Shown in pieces: positions 6,390-52,470 of a stretch of 64,000 nt of DNA (positions are counted from its first letter, which is position 1; each line of letters starts with the position of its first letter). The translations under genes were made by a program, and so were the position numbers. Origin of the DNA: Comamonas endophytica (GTDB lineage Bacteria > Pseudomonadota > Gammaproteobacteria > Burkholderiales > Burkholderiaceae_C); contig NZ_CP106883.1 in NCBI RefSeq assembly GCF_023634805.2, positions 67,046-131,045 on the forward strand, in the 5' to 3' direction. The notes under the pieces are model-generated. The model made no database searches. It saw only the letters and a list, made by a program, of their open reading frames with translations, and was not told the DNA's origin.

Positions 6390-6655
6390 TCAGCCGGCCA
6401 GGTATTCGTCCGTCGTGACGATGGTTACATCAGTGAAATCGTGAACGACGATGGCCTTGTAGCCAAAGTCCGAGGCAGCGCGCGTGGTGCGTTGATGCAC
6501 ATATGGCTCATTGCACCAACGATGATGACTTCCTCTAAGCCCTGGTCATCGAGGAACTTCTTCAGATCGGTTTTCAGGAAGGAGTTGGGGTAGTTTTTGG
6601 TGATGACCGCTTCGTCCGGCTGCAGCGTCACCTGCGCAATGAACTTCACACCTCA
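6390..6655 (-). pseudogene. Isochorismatase-family hydrolase remnant
   Basis: The minus strand encodes the C-terminal part of a cysteine hydrolase: VITKNYPNSFLKTDLKKFL, then the active-site segment EEVIIVGAMSHMC. Directly after the catalytic cysteine the frame breaks. TTRAASDFGYKAIVVHD continues in a different frame, ending near 6390. The N-terminal half is absent. This is a truncated, frameshifted remnant with no expected activity, lying between cueR and the DUF305 gene. Confidence 0.75.
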
Positions 6656-18820: not shown

Positions 18821-18822
18821 GG

Positions 18823-19665
18823 TCAGCCACCTCTGCCCTTCCTCTGCACGCGCTTGCCTCCGACCAAGATCGCAGTGCCCTGGGGATCGTCGGCAGCCAG
18901 GTCTGCATTTGCCTCCCAGGCATCGGCCTCGCTGAGTGCGGTTTCCTCAAAGGCGCCATTGCGCTCTGCTTCCTCAGCCGTGTACTCCACCTGAACGCCC
19001 GGCAAGCCCGCGTCGGCCTGCGAACGGCTGATGACTGGATCGACCCGGATGGCGACGGGAGCGGCTTGGTCCTTGGTGTCATTCATGGAGGCATCCTTTC
19101 TTGGCTGCTGGCGAACAAAGATGGCAGTGGGGGAGGTGCGGGGATCGAGGGCGGGCACGTTGACGCCCGGCGCTGCCCCGCCTGCTATGCCGTATCGCGC
19201 GACATAGCCGTTAAGAAAGCCCCGGTTGAAATTGCCGGTGTTGTAGGCAGACAAGGCGGCCCGCAGGGCGGCCTGCTCGCTGCCGAATCTTGGCAAGGCG
19301 GACGCATAGAAAGCCGCCAATACCTGCGCCCCGGCAGCAACGTTCTTGCAGCCATCTGACAGCATTTCTTCCACGCTCATCCCCAGCGCGGGCAGATTTC
19401 GGCTGTTGACCTGCATGTAACCTAGATCCACGGAATGGCCTGCCTCGATGGCGGCGTAGGCCACGGTCACGGCATCCTGTGCCGACTGGATGGGAATGGG
19501 CGCCTTGAACCTCACGCGCGTCTTCGTGCCATCCTTGCCGGCCACGACACGGTCATTGGCGTTGACCGCTATGGGGTTGCCACGGCTTTCGACATGGATG
19601 ATTTTCTGGATGGTTGCGGGTGCGACATTGGGGGCGCATGCCGCCAGCAGTTCCAATCCAGTCAT
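18823..19665 (-). CDS. VirB1-like lytic transglycosylase
   Basis: A 280-residue peptidoglycan hydrolase that opens the wall for the mating channel. The catalytic Glu is in IIHVESRGNPIAVN near residue 26, and SVDLGYMQVNSRNLPALG and ALSAYNTGNFNRGFLNGY are typical lytic-transglycosylase segments. The C-terminal 90 residues are acidic and disordered-looking (AEEAERNGAFEETALSEADA). No clear signal peptide is seen. The start overlaps traF by four bases and the stop is two bases before traC, so it is in the tra operon. Confidence 0.9.
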   Translation of the reverse strand: MTGLELLAACAPNVAPATIQKIIHVESRGNPIAVNANDRVVAGKDGTKTRVRFKAPIPIQSAQDAVTVAYAAIEAGHSVDLGYMQVNSRNLPALGMSVEEMLSDGCKNVAAGAQVLAAFYASALPRFGSEQAALRAALSAYNTGNFNRGFLNGYVARYGIAGGAAPGVNVPALDPRTSPTAIFVRQQPRKDASMNDTKDQAAPVAIRVDPVISRSQADAGLPGVQVEYTAEEAERNGAFEETALSEADAWEANADLAADDPQGTAILVGGKRVQRKGRGG

Positions 19666-20225
19666 TGGGCACCCCCGCTTGATAGCGCAGCAGTGCTGCC
19701 TGAGACCCAGAGCGGAGTTGCAATGCCTCGCACGCGAGACAGCGGGACAGGCCCGAAGTAACGGCTGTCAAAGCTCCCGTCGCTATAGCTGGAGAAGACC
19801 CATACCTCCCCTGGCCCCACCTGGTACTCCCCCGCCGGGTAGGCGCGCATAAAAGGCAGGGCCCGGGTGTTCTGGAGCTCCCTGCCATTGACCACGGCAG
19901 GCCTGCCTGGCTGCAGCCGGACGACATCGCCCGCGATCGCCTGGATCGGCTTGAGAAGCGGTGCAACTTGCATGTCGCAGCCTCCTGCTGCCAGATAGCC
20001 GCGGTCGCGCATCCAGTCGACTACCGGGGCCGCCGGCGGACAGATCTCCACCAGCCGCCGGCGCCCCAGCCTGTCTATGCCGACCTTTTTGACCATCCAG
20101 AGGCCGGTGGGTGCCGACGCCGTAGCATTGATCCGCAACCCGGTAGCGCGGCCGCCGACGGCGAAAGCCGCCACTAGCCCGGTCAAGGATAGTGCCCAGA
20201 TGGCGAAGGATTTGCCCGTTTTCAT
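19662..20225 (-). CDS. traF: TraF conjugal transfer peptidase (S26 family)
   Basis: A 187-residue membrane protein with one N-terminal helix (FAIWALSLTGLVAAFAVGG). The signal-peptidase-like region has NATASAPTGLW, where the serine aligns with the catalytic serine of RP4 TraF, and later GDVVRLQPG around the general-base position. RP4 TraF cleaves and cyclises the TrbC pilin, and trbC is present at 28398. The segment FSSYSDGSFDSRYFGPVP is typical of the family. Four-base overlaps join it to traG and to the transglycosylase gene. Confidence 0.9.
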   Translation of the reverse strand: MKTGKSFAIWALSLTGLVAAFAVGGRATGLRINATASAPTGLWMVKKVGIDRLGRRRLVEICPPAAPVVDWMRDRGYLAAGGCDMQVAPLLKPIQAIAGDVVRLQPGRPAVVNGRELQNTRALPFMRAYPAGEYQVGPGEVWVFSSYSDGSFDSRYFGPVPLSRVRGIATPLWVSGSTAALSSGGAQ

Positions 20226-22177
20226 GAAACCACGAAGCTCTTTGGCTTGGAATCGCCCTGCGCTGGCTTGCCTGCATCATCCTTGGGAGGGCCGTCGCGT
20301 AGGGAGTCCGTGGGCACCGGCTTGACCTTGGAGCGCTTGGAGAAAGTGGGGTCCAGGAAATACAGGATCTGGCGGCCACGGATTACTGGCTGGCCAGCGA
20401 CAAAAATCAGCATTTCGCCGGGCTCTGTGATCGCCCTGCCGCTGGTGTCTTTCTTTGGTCCCGGCAGGCGCATGATCTCGTCCGGCGTCATCAACGGCCG
20501 CTGGACTTCCTGGTAGCTGCGCGAGACCTGCTCGAGCACCAGGCCAAACCGCTTGCCTGAGGTCGAAATCTGCTCCTTGACGACGGTTGTCGTGCCGGTC
20601 ATCTTCGACATCCATTCCGCTGTCTCTACCTTGTTGGGTGCAAAGGCAATGCGCACATGGCAGTTGGAAATGATGCTTTCGTAGTTGGTATAGGCCTTGT
20701 AGAGCTGCTGCACGTCCTGCGTGATGAGGTACGCCTTCATGCCATAGCCAGCGATATAGGCGAGGGCTTCCTCGAAGACCTCCAGCTTTCCCAGCGTGGG
20801 AAATTCATCCAGCATCAGCAGCAGGCGGTGCTTGTGGGCAGTCTTCGAACGTCCGTCGTCAAACTCCATCTCGTCCGCCAGGGTGAAGACGATCATCGTC
20901 AACAGCAGCCGGGTCAGCGGCACCAGGCGCTTGGAGGTTTTTGGCGTGGATATGAGGTACAGCGAGACGGGGCGCTCGTGGTCCATCAGGTCGGCAATCC
21001 TGAAGTCGCTGCGGCTGGTGTTCTCTCCGACGATGGGGTCGCGGTAGAGAGAAAGCGCGTTGTTGGCGGTGGAAATGATGCTTCCGAGTTCGCGCGCGGG
21101 CGTGTTCAGCATGCGGCTGCCCACGCTGGTGATCACCAGGGCGGCCTCTCCGTCAGCAGGCTCCTGGCTCTTGAATTTGACTTCGCGCATTTCAGCGAAC
21201 AACCCGGCCAGAGCCCTTGGATCGCCGTCTGAATCGTCCGCAAGATCGTTTTTGGTGCCTGGGGCCGCAAAGACACCGACCCCGGTGAGCATGTGTCCGA
21301 TGTCCTGTAGGCAGGGGGTACGGCCCACTTTTTCGGCCTTGTAGAGGGCGTGCAGGATCAGCCCGACCAGCAGTTCGAACGCCGCGCTGCGGAAGTGGTT
21401 GCCCTCGATGCCCTTGCCGTCCGAGTCCACCACCATCAGCGCGATGTTTTGCGTGTCGCTGACCTGGAAGCGGGTGCGGTGCCCGATCTCCGACAAAGGG
21501 TTCCAGGCGCAGCTTGAGCCTGGCTTGGCTGGGTCGAAGCGAAGCACCACGTTGTTGGCGTGGTGCTTTCTCCAGCCTGAAGTCATGGCGTAGTTCTCGC
21601 CCTTGATGTCCAGGACGAAAACGCTCTGTGGCCAGCTCAGCAAGGTAGGAATGACCAGGCCGACCCCCTTGCCGGATTGCGTGGGCGCGAGTGCCGCGAT
21701 ATGTTCCGGGCCATCGTGCCGAAGGTAATGGGTCGCCCCGGTTTTGGGGTCGTCAAACGCGCCGCAGTAGACGCCCTGTCCCGGCTTGCCATCGGGGGGC
21801 AGCAGCCCCGTTTTCCTTACCTGCTCCAACGTCGCGAACTGCGCTGTTCCGTGCACCTCCTCGTGCTTGCGCGGGCTGCGTGACTTCAGGCCAATCCACG
21901 ACACATAGAACATCAGCCCGAACAGCACGCTGCTGAAAAAAATGATGGCCGCGTAGTGGTAGGTGCTGGGGGCGTGGTCATAGAACTTGAACAGCCATCG
22001 CCACCAGTCGAAGGGGCCGTAGAGCATGCCGGCAACCGGTTTCCCGAGCGATGTGGGGTAGCCCAGGCGGCTGGCGACGAATTGCGTGCAGACGCTGCTG
22101 GCGGCCGTCACGAACAGCAGGAAAACACCGCCGCCCACCATCCTTAGCCAAACGATGGAGGAATTTTTTGCGTTCAT
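20222..22177 (-). CDS. traG: VirD4/TraG type IV coupling protein
   Basis: A 651-residue inner-membrane ATPase that links the relaxosome to the mating pore. Two N-terminal membrane helices (about 9-30 and 70-95) precede the cytoplasmic domain. Walker A is APTQSGKGVGLVIP near residue 170 and Walker B is LLLMLDEFPTLGKLE near 430. The GMKAYLITQDVQQL segment is also characteristic. It overlaps the relaxase gene and traF by four bases each. It corresponds to RP4 traG in sequence type and gene order. Confidence 0.95.
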   Translation of the reverse strand: MNAKNSSIVWLRMVGGGVFLLFVTAASSVCTQFVASRLGYPTSLGKPVAGMLYGPFDWWRWLFKFYDHAPSTYHYAAIIFFSSVLFGLMFYVSWIGLKSRSPRKHEEVHGTAQFATLEQVRKTGLLPPDGKPGQGVYCGAFDDPKTGATHYLRHDGPEHIAALAPTQSGKGVGLVIPTLLSWPQSVFVLDIKGENYAMTSGWRKHHANNVVLRFDPAKPGSSCAWNPLSEIGHRTRFQVSDTQNIALMVVDSDGKGIEGNHFRSAAFELLVGLILHALYKAEKVGRTPCLQDIGHMLTGVGVFAAPGTKNDLADDSDGDPRALAGLFAEMREVKFKSQEPADGEAALVITSVGSRMLNTPARELGSIISTANNALSLYRDPIVGENTSRSDFRIADLMDHERPVSLYLISTPKTSKRLVPLTRLLLTMIVFTLADEMEFDDGRSKTAHKHRLLLMLDEFPTLGKLEVFEEALAYIAGYGMKAYLITQDVQQLYKAYTNYESIISNCHVRIAFAPNKVETAEWMSKMTGTTTVVKEQISTSGKRFGLVLEQVSRSYQEVQRPLMTPDEIMRLPGPKKDTSGRAITEPGEMLIFVAGQPVIRGRQILYFLDPTFSKRSKVKPVPTDSLRDGPPKDDAGKPAQGDSKPKSFVVS

Positions 22178-40181: not shown

Positions 40182-40745
40182 TTTTAGCGCTTCATAAAGC
40201 ACAGTCTTCTCCACTTTGATGCTGCAGCGACTTCTCGGAATGTAAGCCCCTTGTCCACTATCTGTTTCGCTTGCTGAAGCTTTGCAGTGAGGATTACGGG
40301 CTTTCTTCCTCCCTTGCGCCCCTGGCTGCTACTGACGTCAGCCCAGCAACGGTCCGCTCGAGGATCAAATCACGCTCGAATTCCGCGAGTGAAGCAGATT
40401 GGTAAGCAGTCTTTCGCTGCGTGTTGTCGTATCGATCTCTGGATCACTCAATGATCTAAATGAAATTCCGCGTTTCCCTTAGTCTAAGACCGTTTGCACC
40501 AAATGTTTAAGGGATCGGCCCAGTCTGTCCAGCTTCCAAACGATAAGGGCGTCACCTTCGCGCAGGTACTGCAATGGTTTTTCAAGTCCTGGCCTATCGT
40601 CCTTATCTTCCCTGACGACATCTGAGAGCTCCTTAATCTTCGGGCCACTTGAGGCTCCAAGCTTCGCATATAGCCAAGATACGTACTCGGCCATTCGGTA
40701 CCAGCCTGTGGAGATCCGCTCTGCCCCAGCGTAGGGCCCCCAAGC
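40182..40745 (-). pseudogene. Serine resolvase/invertase remnant
   Basis: Pieces of a Tn3-type resolvase are visible on the minus strand. DDRPGLEKPLQYLREGD followed by ALIVWKLDRLGRSLKHLVQT is a clear catalytic-domain segment, ending in a stop. Further left, ERDLILERTVAGLTSVAARG leads by a frameshift to a C-terminal HTH-like tail near 40182-40330. The N-terminal serine region is degraded. It is inactive but points to a former transposon or resolution system between H-NS and the toxin-antitoxin genes. Confidence 0.75.
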
Positions 40746-40826
40746 ACAGAAGCATGTCATTGCTGGGTGCCCATTTCTCACTGGGTAAATCGTACTGGCG
40801 CGCGTTTGATCTTCCCAGCCGACTAT

Positions 40827-41153
40827 CTACGCTACCGCTTTGCCGCTCAGATCGGCGAAGTTATTGATCTTCACCGCGCCGTCCGGGAAGCGCGCCACGA
40901 TCTCCAGCTGTCCGCCCATCGCCTCGATGTGACTGCGTAGCGTGGAAAGGTACATATCCGTGCGCCTCTCCATTTTGGCAATGGAAGGCTGCTGAACGCG
41001 GAGTACATCCGCCAGCATCTTTTGCGACAGGCCACGCGCTTGGCGCAGCTCATTGAGCGGCATCTCGGCAAGCATTGCCTGTGCCTGAACCTCGGCGCGG
41101 GCCTGTGCCTCGGGTGACATTTGCTGCCGCAGTTCAGAGAATTTCTTAGCCAT
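40827..41153 (-). CDS. higA: HigA-type antitoxin, XRE family
   Basis: A 108-residue antitoxin. The helix-turn-helix is MPLNELRQARGLSQKMLADV followed by QQPSIAKMERRTDMYLSTL. The C-terminal strand-rich tail (LEIVARFPDGAVKINNF) is usual for antitoxins of this clade. It overlaps the upstream toxin gene by eight bases, so toxin and antitoxin are coupled, in the toxin-first order of HigBA systems. It probably binds toxin and represses the shared promoter near 41520-41560. Confidence 0.88.
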   Translation of the reverse strand: MAKKFSELRQQMSPEAQARAEVQAQAMLAEMPLNELRQARGLSQKMLADVLRVQQPSIAKMERRTDMYLSTLRSHIEAMGGQLEIVARFPDGAVKINNFADLSGKAVA

Positions 41154-41511
41154 TGATCAGCCCTTCCTTTCGAAGTTGCTCCAGATGTTCGTCGTAAAGC
41201 CTGTCGGCGATGGGAACATGGACGTCATACCAACGGTCGTTTCCTGTCTTGTCCCCGCCAATCAACAAAATAGCTGATCGTCGGGGATCAAACGCGTACA
41301 AGGTTCGAAGTGGGCGCCCATCATGCTGAGTGCGCAATTCCCGCATATGGCTGTGCCGTGAGCCATTGATTCCGCTGCTATGAGGAAAACCCAGGGTAGG
41401 CCCACGCGCTTCCAACAGACGTACCGATGTATCCAGCGATTCCTGCTCTTCTGCAGTCAAGCCGGCCCACCAGTCGCCAAAGTCATCTGTGTACTCGACA
41501 TCCCATTTCAT
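41146..41511 (-). CDS. higB: HigB/RelE-type mRNA interferase toxin
   Basis: A 121-residue toxin of the phage-derived Gp49-like HigB clade. Its segments are VEYTDDFGDWWAGLTAEEQE, LGFPHSSGINGSRHSHMREL and PLRTLYAFDPRRSAILLIGG, ending in DKTGNDRWYDVHVPIAD. The basic residues around RELRTQHDGRPLR form the expected ribosome/mRNA contact. Family toxins cut mRNA on the ribosome and stabilise plasmids. The start at 41511 lies only about 150 bases from umuD on the opposite strand. Confidence 0.88.
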   Translation of the reverse strand: MKWDVEYTDDFGDWWAGLTAEEQESLDTSVRLLEARGPTLGFPHSSGINGSRHSHMRELRTQHDGRPLRTLYAFDPRRSAILLIGGDKTGNDRWYDVHVPIADRLYDEHLEQLRKEGLING

Positions 41512-41650
41512 GACTCAAGTATAGCTTCCATGGAATATTCCGTCAAAGGAATACATGTAAAGGTCAAGCAACTTCTTTTAAGCGTGGTAAGCGCACCGTT
41601 AGACCCGCAGCGTTATGAAAATCATTTCAAGCTCCGCAACCAAACGTATA

Positions 41651-41666
41651 CTGTACGCATGTACAG
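41651..41666 (+). promoter_or_regulatory. LexA (SOS) box at the umuD start
   Basis: CTGTACGCATGTACAG is a perfect match to the LexA consensus CTGT-N8-ACAG. It overlaps a TATACT -10 element (41647-41652) and includes the ATG of umuD (41659). Bound LexA would block both promoter and start codon. No ribosome site is visible upstream, and the spacing predicts a transcript that begins at or near the ATG. Confidence 0.85.
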
Positions 41667-42102
41667 CAATTCATTAATCGCCGGCCAGCCGATTCCTTGG
41701 CTTGCAACTCCTTTGGTGCTGCCATTAGCGGATTGCTCTGTGCGTGCCGGCTTTCCCTCTCCCGCGGAAGACTTCAGCGGTAAGCGCCTGGACATTTCGG
41801 AAATTCTGGTGGAACACCCCCAGGCTACCTATCTGCTGCGTGTGGCTGGGCCCTCAATGACCGAATACGGCATCGATGACGGCGATTTGATCGTGGTGGA
41901 CCGAGCGCTGACGGCGCGCCATGGCTGCATAGTGGTTGCAATCCTGGACAGCGAATTCACCGTGAAGGTTCTGCACCAGGTCAACGGCACTTTTCGCCTT
42001 AAGGCGGGCAACCGCACCTATCCCGACATTGTTCCGCGCGAGGGCCAGACCCTCGAGATCTGGGGCGTGGTCACGGCCTGTGTGAAGCGATTCTCGAGAT
42101 AG
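41659..42102 (+). CDS. umuD: UmuD-like SOS mutagenesis protease
   Basis: A 147-residue LexA/UmuD-type serine protease. The self-cleavage site is Ala-Gly in [13 protein letters not shown] near residue 32. The nucleophile Ser is in [18 protein letters not shown] near 66 and the general-base Lys is in [10 protein letters not shown]. Cleavage is triggered by RecA filaments, and the product activates UmuC as polymerase V. The start at 41659 gives the usual N-terminal length. It is three bases upstream of umuC, which is split by a transposon, so UmuD probably lacks its partner here. Confidence 0.9.
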
Positions 42103-42104
42103 CC

Positions 42105-42232
42105 ATGTTCGCGCTGATCGACGGGAATAATTTCTATGTGTCGTGCGAACGCGCCTTTCGCCCCTCGCTGCGCGGCATTCCGGTGGTCGTGCTGTCCAAC
42201 AACGACGGTTGCGCCATTGCCAGATCAGACGA
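42105..42232 (+). pseudogene. umuC: umuC, 5' fragment interrupted by a transposon
   Basis: This encodes the first 42 residues of a Y-family polymerase ([20 protein letters not shown], then [11 protein letters not shown]). At 42233 the frame runs into the left end of an inserted element and continues as foreign sequence to a stop at 42405-42407. The remainder of umuC begins at 50657. Joining 42105-42232 to 50657-51833 gives an uninterrupted 434-codon gene with the normal junction (ARSDEAKALGIKMGQP). The fragment keeps the catalytic Asp in LIDGNNF but lacks the rest of the active site. Confidence 0.95.
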
Positions 42233-42244
42233 TTATGTGGAATG
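42233..42244 (+). repeat. Left terminal inverted repeat of the ars transposon
   Basis: TTATGTGGAATG at the left end matches the complement of 50639-50650 at 11 of 12 bases. It abuts the umuC codon for Glu (GA of GAG). Confidence 0.85.
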
Positions 42245-42418
42245 CAATCATCCGTCAACCAGGTATCGTTTCAACATCATCGCGATAAGCTGTGCATATG
42301 AGACTCCACTTCCCCAAGAGTCGCAGAAGCCACGCTACGTTGTCATGGCAGTCGTGGAGAAATCGGGCGCCGCACGTTTTCCTCTGCCGCCGAATGCCCC
42401 CTCGTGACATCCATTCCG

Positions 42419-43618
42419 CTACAGGTTTGGCTTGTCTAGCTCAGTGACATGTTGCGGAAGCCGTATACCGTGAAGCGCCCAGAAGGCGGTGATTCCCAGC
42501 AATGAGGACAGCCACAGTGCGCCTGAACCCCACTGGGAGACGGCCATGCCAAAGAGAAACGGCGAGCCGGCTTGCAGAATGCGCGCCGGTACCATCAGCC
42601 AGCCCTGGCGCAGACCATAGCCGTGCGCGCCGAACACCTTGAGCGGCAGCGTACCCACGGCGATGGTCAGAATGCCGTTTCCCAACCCATGCAGAATGGC
42701 AAAAACGCTGGCCGCAGGGGCACCAACCAAACCCAGACAGATGGCGGCCAAGGGATGGGCAAGGATCGCCAGTTTTGCGCACAGCAGCGGATGTGCATTC
42801 CTGAGGAACCCGTACTCTGCCAAGCGTCCCGCCACCTGTGCAGGCCCCACAAGCGCTGCGGCCCAGATAGCTACCGCCACCGTTCCGCCTGTAATTTGCA
42901 GCAACTGTGGCAGGTGGGCAGCCATGGCGGTGCTGATAAACCATGAGACAGCGAACACATAGGCCATTAGACACACGGTGCGCCTGCGGAACTGCACTTC
43001 CTCGCTTGCGTCCTGCATTCCTTCTTGTCTGCGGTCGCTTGACCCCTCCTCGGCCGCTTTTGCAGCCCGTGGCAACAACATGTTGAGCGGGAGCCCCAGC
43101 AACAGGTGCAGCGCCGCCCAGGTCAAACAGGCCTCGCGCCATCCAAACTCATGCGCAAGATGGCTGGATAGTGGCCACCCGATGGTGCTGGCGAATCCTG
43201 CAAACAGCGTGATGCCAGTGATGGCGGGTCGGGCGTCCTGACCATAGAGGCGCACAACCGTGGAAAACGCTGCCTCGTACAGGCCGCTGCCCATGGCAAT
43301 ACCCATGATGGCCCAGGCCAGAAACACCTCGCTGGACTGGGTGGCCTGACTCAGTATCGCCAGTCCGGCAGCAAATACCAGGTTGCTTGCGATCAAAACC
43401 GGACGGCCACCGAAACAGTCGATGAGCCGACCGGCCACGGGCCCAGTGGCAGCTGAAACCAGCAGTGCCGCTGAGAACGCGGCGAACACTGTGGAGTACG
43501 CCATGCCAACGGCACGGCTGATTGATTCAGCCAGCACCGCGGGCAGGTAGTACGACGATGCCCAGGACAGCGTTTGCGCCACACCCAGCATGACGGTGGT
43601 CTGTGTGCGGCGCTGCAT
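42419..43618 (-). CDS. MFS transporter of the ars operon
   Basis: A 399-residue major facilitator protein with about twelve hydrophobic segments. The first loop motif is GRLIDCFGGRPVLIASN near residue 62. It is the last gene of the leftward ars operon, 12 bases after arsH. Related MFS genes often accompany arsH, and export of arsenite, antimonite or organoarsenicals is plausible. The sequence does not identify the substrate, so I give no gene name. Only 12 bases separate its stop from the umuC fragment frame on the other strand. Confidence 0.85.
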   Translation of the reverse strand: MQRRTQTTVMLGVAQTLSWASSYYLPAVLAESISRAVGMAYSTVFAAFSAALLVSAATGPVAGRLIDCFGGRPVLIASNLVFAAGLAILSQATQSSEVFLAWAIMGIAMGSGLYEAAFSTVVRLYGQDARPAITGITLFAGFASTIGWPLSSHLAHEFGWREACLTWAALHLLLGLPLNMLLPRAAKAAEEGSSDRRQEGMQDASEEVQFRRRTVCLMAYVFAVSWFISTAMAAHLPQLLQITGGTVAVAIWAAALVGPAQVAGRLAEYGFLRNAHPLLCAKLAILAHPLAAICLGLVGAPAASVFAILHGLGNGILTIAVGTLPLKVFGAHGYGLRQGWLMVPARILQAGSPFLFGMAVSQWGSGALWLSSLLGITAFWALHGIRLPQHVTELDKPNL

Positions 43619-43630
43619 CGTCGCGTCGCC

Positions 43631-44349
43631 TTAAATGCTGCGTTGGTTGACCCGCTGGGACAGCGCCTCGGCGCTTTCGCGCCGTTCGCTGTAGCGGTCC
43701 ACCAGGTAGTCCGCGCAGTCGCGGGTCAGGATCGTGAACTTGATCAACTCCTCCATCACATCAACCACCCGTTCGTAATATGAGGACGGCTTCATGCGAC
43801 CTGCTTCGTCGAACTCTGCAAAGGCCTTGGCGACGGACGACTGGTTGGGGATGGTGAGCATGCGCATCCAGCGACCCAGCACGCGCATCTGGTTGACAGC
43901 ATTGAAGGACTGCGAGCCCCCGGAGACCTGCATCACGGCCAGGGTCTTGCCCTGGGTCGGCCGTACGGCGCCCACGGCAAGGGGAATCCAGTCGATCTGG
44001 GCCTTCAGGATTCCGGTCATGGCCCCATGGCGCTCGGGTGAGGTCCAGACCATGCCTTCCGCCCATAGCGCCAACTCACGCAACTCCTGCACCTTAGGGT
44101 GGTTGTCCGGTGCATCGTCGGGCAGAGGCAGTCCGCGTGGGTCAAAATCCGCGGCTCGGCCCCCATTGCTCGCAGCAGCCGGGCTGCCTCCTCCGTCAAC
44201 AGCCGGCTGTAAGAGCGCTCCCGGGCCGACCCATAGAGCAGCAAGATGCGAGGGGGATGTGCAGCGCGCTGCTGCGGCAGCAGCCGCGCCAGGTCTGGCA
44301 CTTCGAACGATTGCATATCCAGGTTGGGGAGATCAGTGCTTTGCAACAC
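43631..44349 (-). pseudogene. arsH: arsH (organoarsenical oxidoreductase) with a single frameshift
   Basis: The product would be a 239-residue NADPH-dependent flavin oxidoreductase that detoxifies trivalent methylarsenicals. The first part ([20 protein letters not shown]) is in one frame. The rest ([47 protein letters not shown]) is in another. The frames join cleanly if one T is added to the four-T run opposite 44144-44147, giving [18 protein letters not shown], the usual ArsH sequence. It starts with GTG at 44349, overlapping arsC. It may be a real mutation or a homopolymer read error. Confidence 0.88.
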
Positions 44350-44764
44350 ATTGTCCTTTCGCGTCGATGACGGCTTCGCCGTCTTCCTTGGAGAGTGCGC
44401 CCTGTTGGGGCCGAGGTAGGATGTCCAGCACAGCCTCGGAAGGGCGGCACAGGCGGGTGCCGAGCGGCGTCACCACGATGGGGCGATTGATCAGGATCGG
44501 ATGCTCGAGCATGAAATCGATCAACTGCTGGTCGGTCCACTTCGGGTCGGCCAAGCCCAGTTCATCAAAAGGCGTGCCCTTTTGCCGCAGAAGATCGCGC
44601 ACGGGAATTGCCATCGTGGCCAGCAAACGCTCCAGCGTAGCCCGGTCGGGTGGCGTCTTGAGATACTCAATGACGCAGGGCTTTTCGCCGCTGTTGCGGA
44701 TCAAGGCCAGCACGTTGCGGGACGTGCCGCAGGCGGGGTTGTGGTAGATGGTGATGGTGCTCAT
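44333..44764 (-). CDS. arsC: Arsenate reductase, glutaredoxin-linked type
   Basis: A 143-residue ArsC of the E. coli R773 type, which reduces arsenate to arsenite using glutathione and glutaredoxin. The active-site Cys is in [15 protein letters not shown] near residue 11. The anion-binding arginines are in [18 protein letters not shown] near 90-105. The ATG at 44764 directly precedes the conserved start; an in-frame start at 44797 lies inside arsB. It overlaps arsH by 17 bases. A second, unrelated ArsC type lies upstream in the same operon. Confidence 0.94.
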
Positions 44765-44789
44765 GGCAGGTCCAAAGCAAAGGGGCGCT

Positions 44790-46079
44790 TCAAGCAAAAA
44801 GGCTCAGGCGCAATGCCAGGGCCGCGAGGGTGGCCAGCAGAACCGGGACGGTCAACACCGCACCGACCTTGAAGTAGTAGCCCCAGCCAATCGTCATGCC
44901 CTTCTTGGCCAGCACATGCAGCCACAGCAGCGTGGCCAGGCTGCCGATGGGGGTGATCTTGGGGCCCAGGTCACAGCCGATCACATTGGCGTAGACCATG
45001 GCTTCCTTGACGATGCCACTGGCACTGGAGGCATCGATAGACAAAGCGCCCACCAGCACGGTCGGCATGTTGTTCATCACGGACGACAGCAGGGCAGACA
45101 GCAGGCCTGTGCCCAGGGCCGCGCCCCATATGCCGCCCTGCGCAAAACGGTCCAGTAACGCCGCCAGGTAGTCTGTCAGGCCCGCATTGCGCAGACCGTA
45201 GACCACCAGGTACATGCCCAGGGAGAAAACCACGATTTGCCAAGGAGCGCCGTGCAATACCTTCTTGGTGCTGATGACAGCCCCGCGCCCAGCCACCGCC
45301 AGCAAAATGGCAGCGCCCACCGCCGCGACGGCGCTGACCGGCACGCCCAGGGGCTCCAGGCCGAAGAAGCCAACCAGCAACAGGACCAGCACCACCCAGC
45401 CCGCACGGAAGGTGGCCGGGTCCTTGATGGCATCGGCGGGGCGTTTGAGCTTGCCAAGGTCGTAGGCTGCGGGAATGTCACGGCGGAAGAACAACAGCAG
45501 CATGGCCAAGCTGGCGATCACCGAGACGATGTTGACCGGCACCATGACCGCGGCGTATTCATTGAATCCGATATCGAAGAAGTCGGCCGAAACGATATTG
45601 ACCAGATTGGAAACGATCAGCGGCAGGCTGGCCGTGTCGGCGATAAACCCTGCCGCCATGACAAAGGCCAAAGTGGTTGCCGGCGAGAAGCCCAGGGCCA
45701 CCAGCATCGCCATGACGATGGGCGTGAGGATCAGCGCGGCCCCATCGTTGGCGAACAAGGCAGACACGGCCGCGCCCAGCAGCACGATGAGCGCAAAGAG
45801 CCTGGTGCCACGGCCGCCGCCCCAGCGCGCAAAGTGCAGCGCGGCCCATTCAAAGAACCCGGCCTCATCAAGCAGCAAGCTGATGATGATCACTGCGACA
45901 AAGGTGGCCGTAGCGTTCCACACGATATTCCAGACCACCGAAATATCCGTCAGCTGCACGACCCCCAGCAGCAGCGCAATGGCCGCGCCCAGTGAAGCGC
46001 TCCAGCCGATGCCCAGGTTACGGGGTTGCCAGATAACCAAAACCAGGGTGAAAACAAAGATCAGGGCAGCCGTGAGCAT
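44790..46079 (-). CDS. arsB: ArsB arsenite efflux pump
   Basis: A 429-residue inner-membrane carrier with about twelve hydrophobic helices, which expels arsenite and antimonite by exchange with protons. Typical segments are [38 protein letters not shown] and [16 protein letters not shown], and also [19 protein letters not shown], which is near-invariant in ArsB. No arsA is present, so it works without the ATPase subunit. It lies between two arsC genes in the leftward operon. Confidence 0.95.
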
Positions 46080-46133
46080 AGTGTGGGAGTGCGAGGGTGA
46101 GAGGTCTGCGTTCGTGGGCGACGGCGCAGGAAA

Positions 46134-46640
46134 TCAGGAGGCCGACATGTCGCGCGCCGTGCCTTGCAAGCGCGCCTTGTCCAGCTTGTCGGCGGGCAGG
46201 TTGACCAGTAGTTCCAGGCGGCGACGCATCAGGTGCATGGTCTGGCGGAAGGCTTCCAGCTTGGTGTCCTCAGGCGCATCGCCTGCGGAAGGATCGGGGT
46301 AGCCCCAGTGCGCCGTGGCTGGATGCCCAGGCCAGATCGGGCAGACCTCGCCCGCAGCGTTGTCGCAAACCGTAATGATCAGATCCATGTGGGGTGCCTC
46401 GGGCGTGGCGAACTCGTCCCAGGTCTTGCTGCGCAGGCCGTCCACCGACACGCCGGCGCGCTGCAACACTTGCAGGCCCAGGGGGTTGGGCTGTTGGTTG
46501 GCACGTGGGCTGCTGCCGGCCGAATAGGCCTTGAAGCGGCCCCGGCCCATGTCGTTGAGCAGGGCTTCTGCCAGGATGCTGCGCGCCGAGTTGTGGGTGC
46601 ACAGGAACAGGACATTCAAGGGGGCAGTGGTATCGGTCAT
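46134..46640 (-). CDS. arsC: Arsenate reductase, low-molecular-weight phosphatase type
   Basis: A 168-residue ArsC of the phosphatase fold. The P-loop is VLFLCTHNSARSILAEALL near residue 14. The redox Cys region is IITVCDNAAGEVCPIWPGHP, and HWGYPDPSAG is the conserved acid loop. It reduces arsenate, usually with thioredoxin or glutaredoxin. The start at 46640 matches family members; an in-frame ATG at 46721 adds an atypical leader. It lies between arsR and arsB. Confidence 0.93.
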   Translation of the reverse strand: MTDTTAPLNVLFLCTHNSARSILAEALLNDMGRGRFKAYSAGSSPRANQQPNPLGLQVLQRAGVSVDGLRSKTWDEFATPEAPHMDLIITVCDNAAGEVCPIWPGHPATAHWGYPDPSAGDAPEDTKLEAFRQTMHLMRRRLELLVNLPADKLDKARLQGTARDMSAS

Positions 46641-46748
46641 AGGTTTTAGCAGCAGGACTTGAGGACGAATGGTGCGAGGTGCGCAGACGGTCACCGCTGC
46701 GGCACGCGGGGAAAGGCACAAAGCAAGCGGTGCCGCTCGCCTGTTAGA

Positions 46749-47072
46749 TCAGCAATTGCAGGCGGAGGCATCCGCAGGCGTGCAAACAGCGCCCTGACAG
46801 CAGTTCTCGGTGAGATAAGCCAGCAGTTCGTTCATCGTTGGGAAGGCTGCGCGGTAAATCACGTTGCGCCCTTGGCGCTCCTGACTGACCAGTTCCGCAT
46901 GGGACAACTCCTTGAGGTGGAAGGACAGCGCATTGGGTGCAATGCCCAACTGCTCTGCCAGGACGCTAGGGGTAAGGCCCTCCGGTCCAGCCACCACCAG
47001 AGCGCGGAACACACGCAGGCGGGCCTCATGTGCGAGGGCTGATAGCGAACGAATGACTTGGGTCTCTTGCAT
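46749..47072 (-). CDS. arsR: ArsR arsenic-responsive repressor
   Basis: A 107-residue winged-helix repressor (SALAHEARLRVFRALVVAG, then GIAPNALSFHLKELSHAELV). The metal site is not the alpha-3 CVC type. Instead cysteines cluster at the C-terminus (ENCCQGAVC, then ACNC), as in the Acidithiobacillus ferrooxidans ArsR type with a C-terminal arsenite site. It leads the leftward ars operon, and a dyad operator lies just upstream of its start. Confidence 0.93.
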   Translation of the reverse strand: MQETQVIRSLSALAHEARLRVFRALVVAGPEGLTPSVLAEQLGIAPNALSFHLKELSHAELVSQERQGRNVIYRAAFPTMNELLAYLTENCCQGAVCTPADASACNC

Positions 47073-47075
47073 AAA

Positions 47076-47097
47076 TCAATGATACAACGATTATTGA
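47076..47097 (-). promoter_or_regulatory. Probable ArsR operator
   Basis: A 22-bp dyad with eight-base arms (TCAATGAT and ATTATTGA around six bases, one mismatch) lies four bases upstream of the arsR start, in an AT-rich stretch. ArsR-type repressors bind such AT-rich dyads over the promoter. The short distance implies a very short leader. Confidence 0.65.
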
Positions 47098-47136
47098 ATT
47101 AATGGTTAAAAAAGAGTATTTCGATCGCAATGTTCG

Positions 47137-47340
47137 TTACCGGTCGGCCGCGTGATGGGCGGGTTTGAGCTGGACTTCACAGTTGTACTGCCGTCCAGCG
47201 ACGGCAATGCACGCGGCCTGTAGGTCATCGCAAGCGAGCTTGCAGGGGGCAGTGTGATCAAGCACTGAGAATGGGCGTCTTGTGCTGCCGTCTTGATCAT
47301 GGTCGCTGTGTCTTTTTGATGGCATTCGGTGTTCGTCCAT
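47137..47340 (-). CDS. Possible small third gene of the transposition module
   Basis: A 67-residue frame begins inside the end of the large recombinase gene and runs on to 47137. Codons after about residue 25 have the GC-rich third positions of neighbouring genes, and SVLDHTAPCKLACDDLQAAC looks protein-like. Tn554 carries a small third gene (tnpC) in this place, but I cannot show homology. A competing frame (47106-47300) starts with an ATGA overlap. Only one of the two is likely to be real. Confidence 0.35.
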   Translation of the reverse strand: MDEHRMPSKRHSDHDQDGSTRRPFSVLDHTAPCKLACDDLQAACIAVAGRQYNCEVQLKPAHHAADR

Positions 47341-49549
47341 CAGGCGTAATGGTGTGGCTCAGGCTATCGACCAATTTCTCCATGGCTTCTATTCCATCTT
47401 CAACCGCAGCACGCTCTGTGTCTTGCAACGGGATTTCCTGAAGCATGCGCGTGAGATTCGCCCCCGCTTCGAGCGCCTGGGCCTTGGCCGAATCTTTCGG
47501 TAAATAGAACGAGCATTTGGCACACGCCATCCGGTGTGGACATTGATCGAAGAAGTCGTAGGTGCATAACCCATGTCCCAGGTCGTAGAAACGCCAGGGC
47601 TCGCCCCGGGCAGCTGCGCCGCTGCGCACTGCATCCTGGTCGACGAGCACGGCGATCGTGCGCAAGTTGCGCTCGAAGTACCCAGCCCGCTCGATTGAAC
47701 CCGCGAGCTTAGTCGGTGTCACCGTGACGTAGTGTTGGGTGGATTGAGGTGAAGCGTGGCCGAGCCAGGCCTGCAGCTCGAATATACCCAGCGGTTCCCT
47801 GGCGTTGAAGAGCTGGCTTGCAATGGTGGCGCGCGCGCGGTGGCTGGTGATGCGACCGCGTGCGTCTTCCAGTGGTATGCCGGCCTTCCTGCACAACAGC
47901 GGAATGAGAGCTCGGTTGAGGTATGCCCCGGCAACGCGTCTTCCGCGATGCACAAATAGATAATCCACCACGCTACCCGTCTTAGCATCGGTCATGCTCG
48001 GATGAGGCAAGCGCTCTCGTTCCCAGGCCTCGACTGCATGGCCCACGACGGCATCAATCGGCTTCGTGAAGGCGGTGGACGTCTTGTTAACGGGCACGTC
48101 GAGAAAACACGTCGGTGAAGCAGCCACATCGTTGGGGCCTGGTTGCCAGCGGATACAACCGATCTGCAGCCGCAGCGATTCGTCGCGGCGTAGTCCTGCG
48201 AACAGCCAGAGTACTGCCAGGGCCCGAATCATCGTGATCGGATAGCGTGTTGGTTGATCGGCACAGCCTTGCCGACTTGGGGTAGGTTTCAAGTCTTCTT
48301 CACTCAGATTGAGACCCGCCCACATTAGCTTTGCCCACGCGCCGTCGGCCACGATGCGTGGCTGGGGTCCGATCAGTACACCGACGGCGCGCGGCAACCC
48401 GAGCGCGCGCACCGGATCGAAGCGTTGAGGGATCCACTCCCATTCCTGAAGGTCACGGAAGAAGCTGCGAACGCTACGCAGATGCGAAGCCTTGGCAGCA
48501 GGCTTGAGCGGGTCACCACGCTGCTTCAGGTACATGCCACCGGGATTCGACCATCGGCCAATCGTCATTCGGGCAACAGTCGCCACGTATTCCAGCGCCG
48601 TCGCGCGAGTCCAGTCGGCAGGACTATTGATCTCAGGATGTATTTCGGCGAGCCAGCGACCACACTTCAGCAGCGCATAGTAGTCTCCCGTGATCGAGGA
48701 GGCAGCTCGTACGGCAGTGGCTCTCCAACGCTCGCACCACTGCAGCCACTCATCTGGGATACCGTCGGTCGCACGGTACTCGTCTGCCGGACGGCGACGA
48801 TCGTTGACGCGGTGATCCAAGCCATGCGTGAGCAACTTCAGACGCACCAATGTCCGAGAGAGTGTTGCAACCCCACTGCGAATGAATGCCGCACCGGTTC
48901 GAGCAACTTGCTGCAATGTATGAAGGGTCAGGTCGTCGATACGTGGACTGCGTTGGATGAGCAGCGCGGTATAGAGCGCGTTCGAAACGCTGGGCCGATG
49001 GACCGACCTAAAACCGACCTTGCTCATCTCGTCGAAAACTTGGCGGTTGGCGTGCTCTACGGCTTCGCGTCCGAACACCTTGATCGCGAGGCGGTACGGG
49101 AAGAAGCGTCCGATCTCCGGGATCCGATCAAAGCCGCACAGGAGATAGGCCACTGCGATAACGTACTGGCGGCAGTTGCCGTTGCCCCCGTAGCGACTTC
49201 GGAAGGCCGCTTCGCTGCTGCACAGCACGTCGAGCCAGTCATCACTGGTCCATCCCCAGTAGGCGATACCGCGGTATTGCATCTCGACAATCACAAGGTG
49301 AATCACAGAATTGCGTGGCGCCTGTGCGGCAGGTATGCGTTCCAGCAGTTCGTGAAGCGGGCATAACAGTCGCGCCAGTGCTTTACGGGACGCTGTGGGC
49401 CATTGCCGTCCATGGCTAGCGAAGTGCACGCGAAGCACCTCCAGTGCCGCACGCTCGTTGGCAGCAAGCACAGGGCTTTGTTCCTTGAGCGAAAACGACT
49501 TTTGCGGTATCGCATTCGCCGGCGCGATCGCGTTCGCCACATTGCTCAT
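47297..49549 (-). CDS. Large tyrosine recombinase of the transposon, TnpB-like
   Basis: A 750-residue site-specific recombinase. The catalytic region is in the second half: the first Arg in LFAGLRRDESLRLQIG, HRARATIASQLFNA, and GHASPQSTQHYVTVTP carrying the nucleophilic Tyr. Near the C-terminus a cysteine cluster (FFDQCPHRMACAKCSFYLP) resembles a zinc-binding element seen in large recombinases of this clade. It overlaps the smaller recombinase by four bases (ATGA), like tnpA-tnpB of Tn554. It lies at the right end of the element and reads inward. Confidence 0.88.
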   Translation of the reverse strand: MSNVANAIAPANAIPQKSFSLKEQSPVLAANERAALEVLRVHFASHGRQWPTASRKALARLLCPLHELLERIPAAQAPRNSVIHLVIVEMQYRGIAYWGWTSDDWLDVLCSSEAAFRSRYGGNGNCRQYVIAVAYLLCGFDRIPEIGRFFPYRLAIKVFGREAVEHANRQVFDEMSKVGFRSVHRPSVSNALYTALLIQRSPRIDDLTLHTLQQVARTGAAFIRSGVATLSRTLVRLKLLTHGLDHRVNDRRRPADEYRATDGIPDEWLQWCERWRATAVRAASSITGDYYALLKCGRWLAEIHPEINSPADWTRATALEYVATVARMTIGRWSNPGGMYLKQRGDPLKPAAKASHLRSVRSFFRDLQEWEWIPQRFDPVRALGLPRAVGVLIGPQPRIVADGAWAKLMWAGLNLSEEDLKPTPSRQGCADQPTRYPITMIRALAVLWLFAGLRRDESLRLQIGCIRWQPGPNDVAASPTCFLDVPVNKTSTAFTKPIDAVVGHAVEAWERERLPHPSMTDAKTGSVVDYLFVHRGRRVAGAYLNRALIPLLCRKAGIPLEDARGRITSHRARATIASQLFNAREPLGIFELQAWLGHASPQSTQHYVTVTPTKLAGSIERAGYFERNLRTIAVLVDQDAVRSGAAARGEPWRFYDLGHGLCTYDFFDQCPHRMACAKCSFYLPKDSAKAQALEAGANLTRMLQEIPLQDTERAAVEDGIEAMEKLVDSLSHTITPDGRTPNAIKKTQRP

Positions 49550-50583
49550 GCTGAGCCTCCCCGGAGTTGGTCCAGTCGTGCCTCATGGACCGCAGCCATG
49601 CTGCGGGTAAACCGGTCTGAGAGATCACGCGCGCTCAGATGAATGTAGAGCAAGGTCGATTGAATGCAGCGATGGCCGGCAAAACGGGCGATCTCCTGGA
49701 TGTCCCAGCCAGCACGTGCCAGGTCCGTCAGGCAGAGGTGACGGAAGCTGTGGGTCGTCAGTGCGGGCACCCCGGCGTGCAACGCGAGCCTGTGTACTAC
49801 TTTCGACCAAGTCCACTTGGTCAGGGGCGTCGCTCGATTGCGTGAGGACTCCGATAGGAACAATGGACCTCGCGGGCTGCCCAAGCGACGACGTTCGGTA
49901 AGGTAGGCCACGTAGAGCTCTGCGCTCACCACCGAGTAGGGGACAATTCGCTCCTGCCGGGTCTTGGTCGTCTCGGCCCGAATGCGAAGCAGGCGTCTTG
50001 CCGGATCGATGTCTCCCGTGGCAAGCGAACACAGTTCCTCCCGACGCAGCGCACAGTCATACGCAAGGGCGAGCATCAAGCGGTTGCGGACTGGCTCGCT
50101 GCGCGCCGTGCACAGTAAAGCCTGCCAATCCGAATCGTCGGGAATCCAGGGAAGCCGCCGCTGAATGGGGATGAGGCCGCGTTGTCCGACACCGAACCCA
50201 CCGGAAGCGGCTCCGCGTCGCCCGCGCGCGACAGGATTCGTTGTGCGCACACCCTCTTCGACCAAGTAGTCATAGAACAACCGGACAACGGTGAGCCGAT
50301 GGCGGATGGAAGCGTTGGAAAGAGCGGAGACGGTGCTGGAAGGGACCTCCACGCCACAGGAGCGCCCAGCCAGTTCGCGCACGTAAGCAGCGATCTGAGC
50401 GCTCCCAACACTTGTGACATTCAACTCCATCCGTCGACAGAAACCGAGGTAGTGATCCAGCCCACGCGCGTAGGCGGCGACGGTATTGGGAGCTCTTAGC
50501 AGATCAACCTGCAAGGACACCCACGCGTACGCAAGGGCATCGCTGCAGAGGTTCGCCAACGCACGCCAAGGTTCTGTAGACAT
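49546..50583 (-). CDS. Tyrosine recombinase of the transposon, TnpA-like
   Basis: A 345-residue integrase. The N-terminal core-binding domain (PNTVAAYARGLDHYLGFCRR) precedes the catalytic domain with Arg in ALRREELCSL, HSFRHLCLTDLARAGWDI, GHRCIQ and the nucleophile Tyr in STLLYIHLSARDL. All catalytic residues expected for the family are visible. It is the first gene of the recombinase pair, 67 bases from the right end of the element. An upstream promoter in the right end would read inward. Confidence 0.9.
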   Translation of the reverse strand: MSTEPWRALANLCSDALAYAWVSLQVDLLRAPNTVAAYARGLDHYLGFCRRMELNVTSVGSAQIAAYVRELAGRSCGVEVPSSTVSALSNASIRHRLTVVRLFYDYLVEEGVRTTNPVARGRRGAASGGFGVGQRGLIPIQRRLPWIPDDSDWQALLCTARSEPVRNRLMLALAYDCALRREELCSLATGDIDPARRLLRIRAETTKTRQERIVPYSVVSAELYVAYLTERRRLGSPRGPLFLSESSRNRATPLTKWTWSKVVHRLALHAGVPALTTHSFRHLCLTDLARAGWDIQEIARFAGHRCIQSTLLYIHLSARDLSDRFTRSMAAVHEARLDQLRGGSA

Positions 50584-50638
50584 CGTGCCTCCTGGGGATT
50601 GCCTACGCTACTCCAGTTGGGCACGGCAGTCAGTCAGA

Positions 50639-50650
50639 CATTCCACGTAA
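50639..50650 (-). repeat. Right terminal inverted repeat of the ars transposon
   Basis: CATTCCACGTAA is the inverted counterpart of the left end (11 of 12 bases). The six bases that follow (TAGATA) are foreign to umuC and sit directly before the resumed reading frame at 50657. Confidence 0.85.
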
Positions 50651-50656
50651 TAGATA

Positions 50657-51833
50657 GGCCAAGGCGCTTGGAATCAAGATGGGCCAGCCGCACTTCGAGA
50701 TCCGGCACCTGGAGCAGAGCGCTGGACTTGTCTGCCTGTCAGCGAATTTCGAGCTCTACGGCGACATCAGTGACCGGATGATGACGCTGGCTGCTGGCCT
50801 GGGTCCTCTGCAGGAGATCTATTCCATCGACGAGAGCTATGTCGGCGACTTGGAGGGCGTTCGCGACCTGACGCAGCGCGCTTGGGCGGTCCGCTCGCGC
50901 ATCCACCGCTGGACCAGCATTCCGACCTGTGTCGGCCTGGCACCCACGAAGACGCTGGCCAAGTTGTGTAACCACGTGGCCAAGGACGCTGAGCGCAAGC
51001 CGGGAAGCTACCCCAAGGAGTTTGCCCAGGTATGCAACTGGGCAGAAATGTCGGCAGCCGCACGCCAGGATATTCTCCAGCGCACGGCTGCGGCGGAAGT
51101 CTGGGGCATTGGCCGCAGGATCGCGGCCCAGCTGGCGGAGCAGGGAATCCTGACGGCCTGGGATGTTGCCCGGATGCCCCCGGGCAAGGCCCGCAGGGAG
51201 TGGAGCGTGGTGCTCGAGCGCACCGTACTCGAGCTACAGGGCATGAGCTGCATCAGCCTGGAGCAGGCGCCGCCGCCGAAGAAGCAGATTGCCAGCACGC
51301 GCAGCTTTGGCCAGGCAATCACCGATTTGCCGCCGCTGATCGAGGCGGTGAGCGAATTTGCTACGCGCGCCGCGGAGAAACTGCGCGCCGGCGGCCAGCG
51401 CGCCGGTGCGCTGCAGGTCTTTGCGCATACCTCGCCGTTTCGCCCGGGACCGCGCTTTTACCGCTCGGCCACCATCCAGCTGCAGCCTGCCTCATCAGAC
51501 ACCAAGGTGCTGGTGGGCGCAGCCGTTGCGGGCCTGCGCTCGATCTATGAGCCTGGCTACCAACTGGCCAAGGCTGGGGTGATGCTGCTGGACTTGGCAG
51601 CCCCCGGGCCGGAGCAGCAGGCGCTGGATTTCGCAGTGCCGGGCCCAGTGCGCGACCAGAGCCCGCTGATGGAAGTGATGGATCGAATCAACGGTCGCTG
51701 GGGCAAGGCCACGGTGCATGTGGCCAGCACCGGGAATGCCGAGAAAGCCGTATCCGATTGGAGGATGAGACCAGAGCGCCGGACCCCAAGGTACACCACG
51801 GTTCTGGATGAGGTGCCGATTGCACGCGCTTAA
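50657..51833 (+). pseudogene. umuC: umuC, main 3' fragment after the transposon
   Basis: This encodes residues 44 to 434 of UmuC. It resumes as AKALGIKMGQPHFEIRHLEQ, contains the catalytic pair in YSIDESYVGDL near residue 110 of the joined protein, and has the fingers/palm segment VGLAPTKTLAKLCNHVAK. The C-terminus is the DUF4113 region (PLMEVMDRINGRWGKATVHV, TPRYTTVLDEVP). A start at 50679 would give a 384-residue protein without the first catalytic strand, so activity is doubtful. The match of the junction to the 42105-42232 fragment shows the gene was whole before insertion. Confidence 0.93.
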
Positions 51834-52134: not shown

Positions 52135-52470
52135 TCCAAGGTGCTGGGGAGCGCGGCTGTTGCGGGCCTGTGCTCGATCTACGCGCCGGGTTACCAGCTG
52201 GCCAAGGCGGGGGACATGCTGCTGCACTTGGCGGGAATGGGTCCCGAGCAGCGGGCCCTCGACTTCGCGGCGCCGGGCCTGACGCGCAGCCAAAACCCGC
52301 TGATGGAAGTTATGGACCGGATCAACGGACGCTGGGCAAAGCTGCGGTACATGTCGCCAGCACAAGGAATGCCGAAGGTCGAGTTCGGCTGGAGGATGAG
52401 GCAGGCGCTCCAGACACCTCGGTATACGACGGCACTGGACAGTTGCCGATTGCGCATGCCTACATGTGAA
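52135..52470 (+). pseudogene. Second umuC C-terminal remnant
   Basis: The plus strand repeats the UmuC tail: AAVAGLCSIYAPGYQLAKAG, LDFAAPGLTRSQNPLMEVMD and WRMRQALQTPRYTTALDS all align with the tail of the umuC at 50657-51833. The two copies differ at many positions, so this is a diverged relative and not a recent copy. There is no upstream polymerase part, so it is a remnant of another umuC gene, perhaps left by recombination between two umuDC loci. Confidence 0.85.

Follow-up and report, generated by a model that had tools for sequence, protein, structure and literature searches.

A two-recombinase arsenic transposon that splits a plasmid umuC gene and probably keeps its own 6-bp spacer

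Tn554 inserts at att554 within radC. For this transposon and the elements known as SEs, a core-passing rule is set out in the available sections of Idola et al. 2023 (PMC10214605) and of the 2025 Tn552-II paper (PMC12486829). According to the same sections, SEs and Tn554-related elements have the target-derived 6 bp on their left side; in SEs this is the side of intA. Here we describe an 8,424-bp element that interrupts a plasmid umuC gene within codon 43 and carries arsenic-resistance genes. It lies in a 64,000-nucleotide stretch of Comamonas endophytica contig NZ_CP106883.1 (positions 67,046 to 131,045), called the window below. Comparison with related sequences suggests, with a probability of about 0.75, that the element belongs to a TnpC-less, Tn554-like family of integrative transposons with two recombinases, and that its 6-bp spacer stays with it through each move.

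Reports from 2014 and 2015 already describe recombinase islands in umuC-type genes. Rhodes et al. 2014 (PMC4542609, accessible part) describe three-recombinase islands (ILEs) that lie in plasmid umuC-type genes and enter rulB of pWW0 with a GAT repeat, and the GInts are described in the accessible part of Bardaji et al. 2017 (PMC5385486). De Maayer et al. 2015 (PMC4458695) report, in the sections available, ICEPan and Erwinia plasmid islands in umuDC with XerC- and XerD-like genes, umuC being split after amino acid 37 and at amino acid 88. The available text of Van Houdt et al. 2012 (PMC3414803) describes, from Rhodococcus, Streptomyces and other Actinobacteria, a long tyrosine recombinase (611-828 aa) next to a short one with no TnpC partner (Famint36 and Famint41). 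The original prediction, made from the window DNA alone, considered arsenic cargo on an element targeted at plasmid umuC to be little described. Targeting of umuC and rulB by recombinase islands is in print, but no description of the end anatomy, the spacer retention or the arsenic cargo of a umuC-targeted element was found in the open-licence literature searched, and the available parts of PMC10425158, PMC6205034 and PMC9448873 describe no such element. For umuC together with Tn554, that literature yielded a single match, a Listeria plasmid survey.

The element occupies window positions 42233-50656. On its left stands the target tract AGACGA (42227-42232), native to umuC and lying at the tnpA-distal junction, followed by TTATGTGGAATGC. 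Its right end reads ..GACATTCCACGTAA, then the foreign tract TAGATA (50651-50656), then GGCCAAGG. The tnpA-distal arm (42233-42244, forward strand) is TTATGTGGAATG; the tnpA-proximal arm (50639-50650, reverse strand) is CATTCCACGTAA, an inverted copy which, written as TTACGTGGAATG, is identical to the distal arm at 11 of 12 positions. Strict end motifs occur within the window at these two places only, and the junctions are identical in both passes of an over-long plasmid contig. Judged from the sequences compared, the insertion structure is no chance product, because relatives in several phyla are bounded by the same end motif.

The 5' part of umuC (42105-42232, forward strand, PF00817) holds codons 1-42 and two bases of codon 43, and the 3' part (50657-51833, forward strand) resumes at the last base of that codon. 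Rejoined, the 128 nt on the left and the 1,177 nt on the right, stop included, make 1,305 nt, or 434 codons and a stop. The original prediction had thus correctly recognized an 8.4-kb element splitting umuC, its near-identical inverted ends, its paired tyrosine recombinases and arsenic genes, and a native left and foreign right tract. Its removal of 42233-50656 also stands; its element end at 50650 does not, since TAGATA is best counted within the element, giving 42233-50656 (8,424 bp).

An uninterrupted umuC, which the original prediction had proposed to look for in related plasmids, is present in Comamonas antarctica. Plasmid NZ_CP054842.1 of this species carries intact umuDC with a umuC of 434 aa, the same length as the rejoined window gene. 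It aligns to window 41641-42232 (3001-3592 of L002; L numbers denote the loci compared) and 50656-51829 at 83% and 86%, and reads ..GGTCGGACGAGGCCAAG.. across the site (protein SDEAK). The alignment join is the insertion point, and by this alignment the intact gene is the empty site. A close relative of the element lies on the same plasmid, next to the 3' part of another umuC. This copy is 96.4% identical to that of the window in its recombinase genes and end, whereas the umuC 3' parts are only 80.5% identical; binned by 150 bp, identity drops from 95.3% (50501-50650) to 80.1% (50651-50800), at the arm end. Because of these differences, the two insertions are most likely independent events in the same codon. 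The distal end of the C. antarctica copy was not found in the 27 kb searched on its left, so the neighbouring copper genes are not certain cargo.

TnpB relatives (E<=1e-10) were found in 585 plasmid records, and genome contigs yielded 222 confirmed TnpB-relative stretches, of which 80 were kept; the comparisons rest mainly on plasmids and these 80 genome loci. Among 398 genomes of the host's phylum, 3 have TnpA at E<=1e-40, as do 2 among 399 of its order; both counts include the host. The arms are nearly constant across Proteobacteria, Actinobacteria, Acidobacteria and Chloroflexi. As the original prediction had asked to be checked, the family is also found at other sites: relatives occupy the same umuC/mucB place in several phyla, as well as other genes, with different 6-bp tracts.

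The tract beside tnpA was counted at 84 ends from 82 of the 99 sequences searched. Left out of the count are 3 of the 99 sequences, in which tnpA gave no hit, 8 hits that begin away from the N-terminus, and 13 tnpA hits for which no arm motif lies within 420 bp or fewer than 6 bp follow the arm. C comes first in 81 of the 84 tracts; 60 have T in second place and 70 end in A, the consensus being CTNATA. Where both ends could be read (n = 38), the tnpA-side tract never equals the target-side tract (0/38), and C is first in 36 tnpA-side versus 15 target-side tracts (Fisher 2.9e-7). The three tnpA-side tracts without an initial C are those of the window (TAGATA), L039 and L041. The recombinase genes of L039 are flipped relative to its ends: the tnpA side carries native GGATGA, and the opposite end a C-type tract, CTGAGA. 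The far tract of L041, read outward, is CTCCGA, and its recombinase module is probably flipped in the same way. With L039 and probably L041 as the exceptions, the native 6 bp is tnpA-distal in the window and its umuC relatives. In the flipped modules the polarity of the 6 bp follows the ends and not the genes, clearly so in L039 and probably in L041.

Related elements in different places were compared as 22 pairs drawn from 31 elements, with at least 74% nucleotide identity over more than 2 kb aligned and with different flanks. Pairs below 74% identity, with 2 kb or less aligned, or with short or similar flanks were dropped, among them L035/L067, whose flanks are too short. The spacers of the 22 pairs differ by 0.82 bases on average against 2.44 with shuffled labels, a value as low being reached in 0 of 10,000 shuffles, and they are identical in 11 of the 22 despite the different flanks. 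L035 and L067 are 99.7% identical, have different flanks and both carry CTATTG. The nearest relative of the window element, that of C. antarctica, has CAGATA, one base apart from TAGATA.

The original prediction explained TAGATA as a core carried over from the previous site, as in Tn554-type transposition. In Tn554 and SEs the circle takes the 6 bp beside the element at its last site and deposits them at one end of the next; TAGATA would then be the footprint of a previous home. The unequal recombinase pair, the 6-bp tract, the lack of target duplication and the combination of one native and one foreign 6 bp are indeed features of SEs and Tn554. We nevertheless consider this explanation quite unlikely here. 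The foreign 6 bp is conserved family-wide and tracks the relatedness of the elements, TAGATA matches none of the native umuC tracts compared, and, seen from the first recombinase gene, the native and foreign sides are the reverse of those published for SEs. A footprint of the last target would resemble native targets and change with each move; on the whole it does neither, and retention of the spacer is the simplest explanation. Carry-over from a shared reservoir, in which every copy left one donor site with a CTNATA-like 6 bp, would likewise yield constant footprints, but Actinobacteria, Acidobacteria, Chloroflexi and Proteobacteria would then all need a donor with the same 6 bp, and the tracts vary with element relatedness; we regard it as very improbable. 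That the spacer is inherited is thus argued from a tnpA-side tract that is conserved, never equal to the target side and stable across different flanks, and TAGATA is probably the element's own spacer.

Several observations weigh against a spacer that is simply kept. The last base agrees between the two tracts in 26 of the 38 elements, a level attained by 13 of 5,000 shuffles; agreement also exceeds expectation at positions 4 and 5 (33 and 51 of 5,000 shuffles), relatedness being ignored in all three tests. Part of the spacer may be replaced by target bases, or the reaction may depend on a short match beside the exchange point. Pairs with both ends are few (6 and 5 when chosen by identity, 5 of the 22 flank-filtered). 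By identity alone, pairs at >=80% (n = 6) differ by 0.17 bases in the spacer versus 3.33 on the target side, and pairs at 74-80% (n = 5) by 1.4 versus 2.6; the five flank-filtered pairs, with spacer differences of 1, 0, 3, 3 and 0 versus target-side differences of 2, 6, 2, 2 and 1, do not separate the models. Two divergent or broken copies, L135 (GGCGGG) and L136 (TCATTG, with a stop codon), are off the consensus, and the 13 tnpA hits without a recognisable end count on the same side. Joined ends, as expected from circles or tandems, were found in 0 of 117 loci; 0 viral contigs had them under a stricter pattern, and 0 of 45 genomes.

The agreement at positions 4-6 beyond shuffles would follow if the cut fell inside the 6 bp, or if a heteroduplex were repaired either way, so that the first three to four bases would be the element's and the last two to three partly the target's. 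Circle variants of GInts are explained in the available text of PMC5385486 by 6-nt staggered cuts with 3-nt heteroduplexes, which is in line with such a process. However, in an IncN mucB the tnpA-distal end has the complete native 6 bp (TTACCT), and not one of the last three bases of this tract recurs in the foreign one (CATAGA) at the tnpA end; AGACGA and TAGATA of the window differ at position 5. Partial exchange of this kind is unlikely in our view.

Under spacer retention, the circle would join the ends as ATTCCACGTAA-TAGATA-TTATGTGGAAT, with inverted recombinase-binding arms around the 6-bp spacer. The partner of this circle, in recombination by TnpA and TnpB, would be a 6-bp site within the NNDGCxxARSxEAK motif conserved in umuC genes. 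Strands would be exchanged at one edge of the spacer only, beside the tnpA-distal arm, in both directions. With exchange at a single edge, the 6 bp of the target would remain distally and the element's spacer beside tnpA. If the element excised in the same way, the target would be made whole again, and the spacer would leave with the element and so be inherited with it. The ends, the empty site and the native 6 bp opposite the spacer can be read directly from the DNA compared, which also shows the two insertions to be most likely independent and the spacer to be probably inherited. We infer the exchange point, precise excision and also the circle, the last because no joined ends were found. 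Retention of the spacer, as supported by the comparison, would replace the mechanism of the original prediction.

Reading leftward, all on the reverse strand, the element encodes tnpA, tnpB, arsR, a low-molecular-weight (LMW)-type arsenate reductase-like gene, arsB, arsC, arsH and an ArsK-like major facilitator superfamily (MFS) gene. The tnpA-like gene (49546-50583) encodes a tyrosine recombinase of 345 aa and overlaps by 4 bp the start of the tnpB-like gene (47297-49549), which encodes a long tyrosine recombinase of 750 aa; both match PF00589. Both keep R...HxxR...H...Y-type residues, which we take to be the motif of such enzymes. The cargo comprises an arsR-type regulator (46749-47072, NF033788), a second arsenate reductase-like protein of the LMW-phosphatase family (46134-46721, below NCBIfam cut-offs), the arsenite efflux pump gene arsB (44790-46079, TIGR00935), the glutaredoxin-type arsenate reductase gene arsC (44333-44797, TIGR00014), arsH (43631-44349, in two frames in this assembly pass because of a frameshift, with TIGR02690 on the downstream piece) and the ArsK-like MFS transporter gene (42419-43618; NF033733 at 234 bits, the cut-off of 400 not being reached). 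An arsenic function is predicted from these matches. The block 42479-47099 is 88% identical to an ars operon on the host chromosome C1 (L015, G000:C1:3253074-3257698), and the cargo, which lies between tnpB and the distal end, may derive from a chromosomal ars operon like this one. On C2 there is another arsB-like stretch, 85% identical (L006, G000:C2:465251-466540).

The first 40.18 kb of the 131,045-bp contig recur at its end without mismatch, with indels only, and the contig is therefore, by its sequence, a single circular plasmid of ~90.87 kb read past its start. The overlap joins G000:C3:1-40179 and 90871-131045 (window 23826-64000), and the differences between passes are indels, mostly in homopolymers. 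A second genomic copy, considered as a product of transposition, was rejected as this assembly overlap. Because of the homopolymer indels, frameshifts in the window, that of arsH included, are doubtful without read support. At the arsH frameshift the other pass differs at a homopolymer, and the frameshift may well be an assembly error.

Both junctions at the first umuC/mucB site were read in the window, L019, L020, L022, L027, L034, L107, L108 and L110, and also in L111 (opposite orientation) and L039. Outside umuC, L087 splits an ISL3-type transposase gene (by eye), and the annotation neighbouring L113 is also ISL3. A second subfamily, with TnpB ~34% identical, is inserted near umuC codon 76 in the conserved stretch SSNYALY; its tnpA-side end was found at this site in L020, L023, L025, L102, L103, L106, L114 and L115. 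The places where De Maayer et al. found umuC split are probably the two umuC sites of this superfamily. In L020, L023, L025 and L106 a single umuC has been hit by both subfamilies, whose ends at codon 43 and close to codon 76 enclose a ~100-bp piece of the gene. Fifteen relatives of 3,275-3,634 bp, the near-identical L035 and L067 among them, contain little beyond tnpA, tnpB and the ends, and therefore the element seems to require no TnpC homologue of its own, unless one is provided from outside.

In the annotation of 15 plasmid stretches with relatives, ars genes are named in C. antarctica only, beyond the umuC 3' part and outside the element ends. Among enterobacterial members, L107 carries a WYL regulator together with a metallohydrolase and an E2-E1-JAB fusion, L020 an OLD-like ATPase/TOPRIM protein and L115 a type II restriction-modification pair. 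The L107 cassette (17204-22125), in which the E2-E1-JAB fusion is single-chain, has similarly annotated counterparts in L019, L109, L110 and L111; cassettes of this type are ubiquitin-like and probably anti-phage. This range of cargo fits a role of umuC as a docking site for survival genes.

Upstream of the split gene lies umuD (41713-42102, forward strand), its start set by alignment to the umuD of C. antarctica. Beside umuD, window 40479-41511 holds a resolvase-like open reading frame (ORF; 40479-40781, by eye), a helix-turn-helix antitoxin-like ORF (40827-41153) and a RelE/ParE-like ORF (41146-41511), so annotated in related plasmids. A second stretch resembling a umuC C-terminus (52136-52455) stands just 3' of the split umuC and is 69-75% identical at the nucleotide level to the two C. 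antarctica genes.

These comparisons separate two treatments of non-identical 6-bp spacers by tyrosine-recombinase transposons, passing on and keeping, and give a short list of loci for testing one against the other. They also account for split plasmid umuC and mucB genes by two paired-recombinase subfamilies at two conserved gene motifs, sometimes occupied at once. The docking sites carry arsenic-resistance or probable anti-phage genes, and insertion breaks the plasmid's error-prone polymerase gene while adding a trait. We are slightly inclined towards a broader view, in which a multi-phylum superfamily with two tyrosine recombinases and no third factor would keep its 6-bp spacer by exchange at a single edge. 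Such transposition would be conservative and target-restoring, unlike the core passing of Tn554 and SEs, and in Proteobacteria the superfamily would have specialised on two umuC-type motifs, with metal-resistance and phage-defence cargo.

With Tn554, Tn558 and Tn552-II, as described in the available parts of PMC10214605, PMC12486829 and PMC7843796, the window element has in common a tyrosine recombinase pair, site-specific insertion, a 6-7 bp tract and no target duplication, and also a native tract on one side with another tract opposite. The original prediction called it a Tn554-style transposon; membership of Tn554 proper is not supported. The window element lacks tnpC, having only two recombinase genes beside its ars genes, and its target is umuC, not radC. 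Its native 6 bp lies on the side away from tnpA, unlike in Tn554-related elements, and its foreign 6 bp, by comparison, appears conserved and inherited, unlike a core transferred at each move. No Pfam or NCBIfam model hit of the window proteins names Tn554, and the best 40 of 621 matches include no staphylococcal record; it is by published descriptions that the element is set apart from Tn554. SEs need the four genes intA, tfp, intB and srap, compared with two recombinase genes here. They shift the spacer from attL to attR, whereas the window family appears to keep it, and their target 6 bp lies on the intA side with the circle spacer at the far side, whereas here the native 6 bp is tnpA-distal.

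ILEs and GInts are recombinase islands like the window element, but, according to the accessible descriptions, have three recombinases (in GInts in a ginABCD operon) versus two here. For ILEs the available text of PMC4542609 gives a 3-bp GAT repeat, no further repeats having been found by its authors; in the pWW0 record this GAT (6488-6490) is the D codon of an NNDGC-like motif, nine codons upstream of the window-type site. For the umuDC islands, the sections available of PMC4458695 give no end sequences, 6-bp tracts, link to Tn554 or arsenic cargo. For the TnpC-less class of Van Houdt et al., the accessible part of PMC3414803 gives no ends, target gene or 6-bp rule, compared with a umuC target and metal cargo in Pseudomonadota here. 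The window pair of 345 and 750 aa, with its 4-bp overlap, matches the accessible definition of that class, a short (~350 aa) and a long (611-828 aa) recombinase. The window family also has hits in Rhodococcus and Streptomyces plasmids, which suggests that its recombinases may belong to the same protein families as Famint36 and Famint41.

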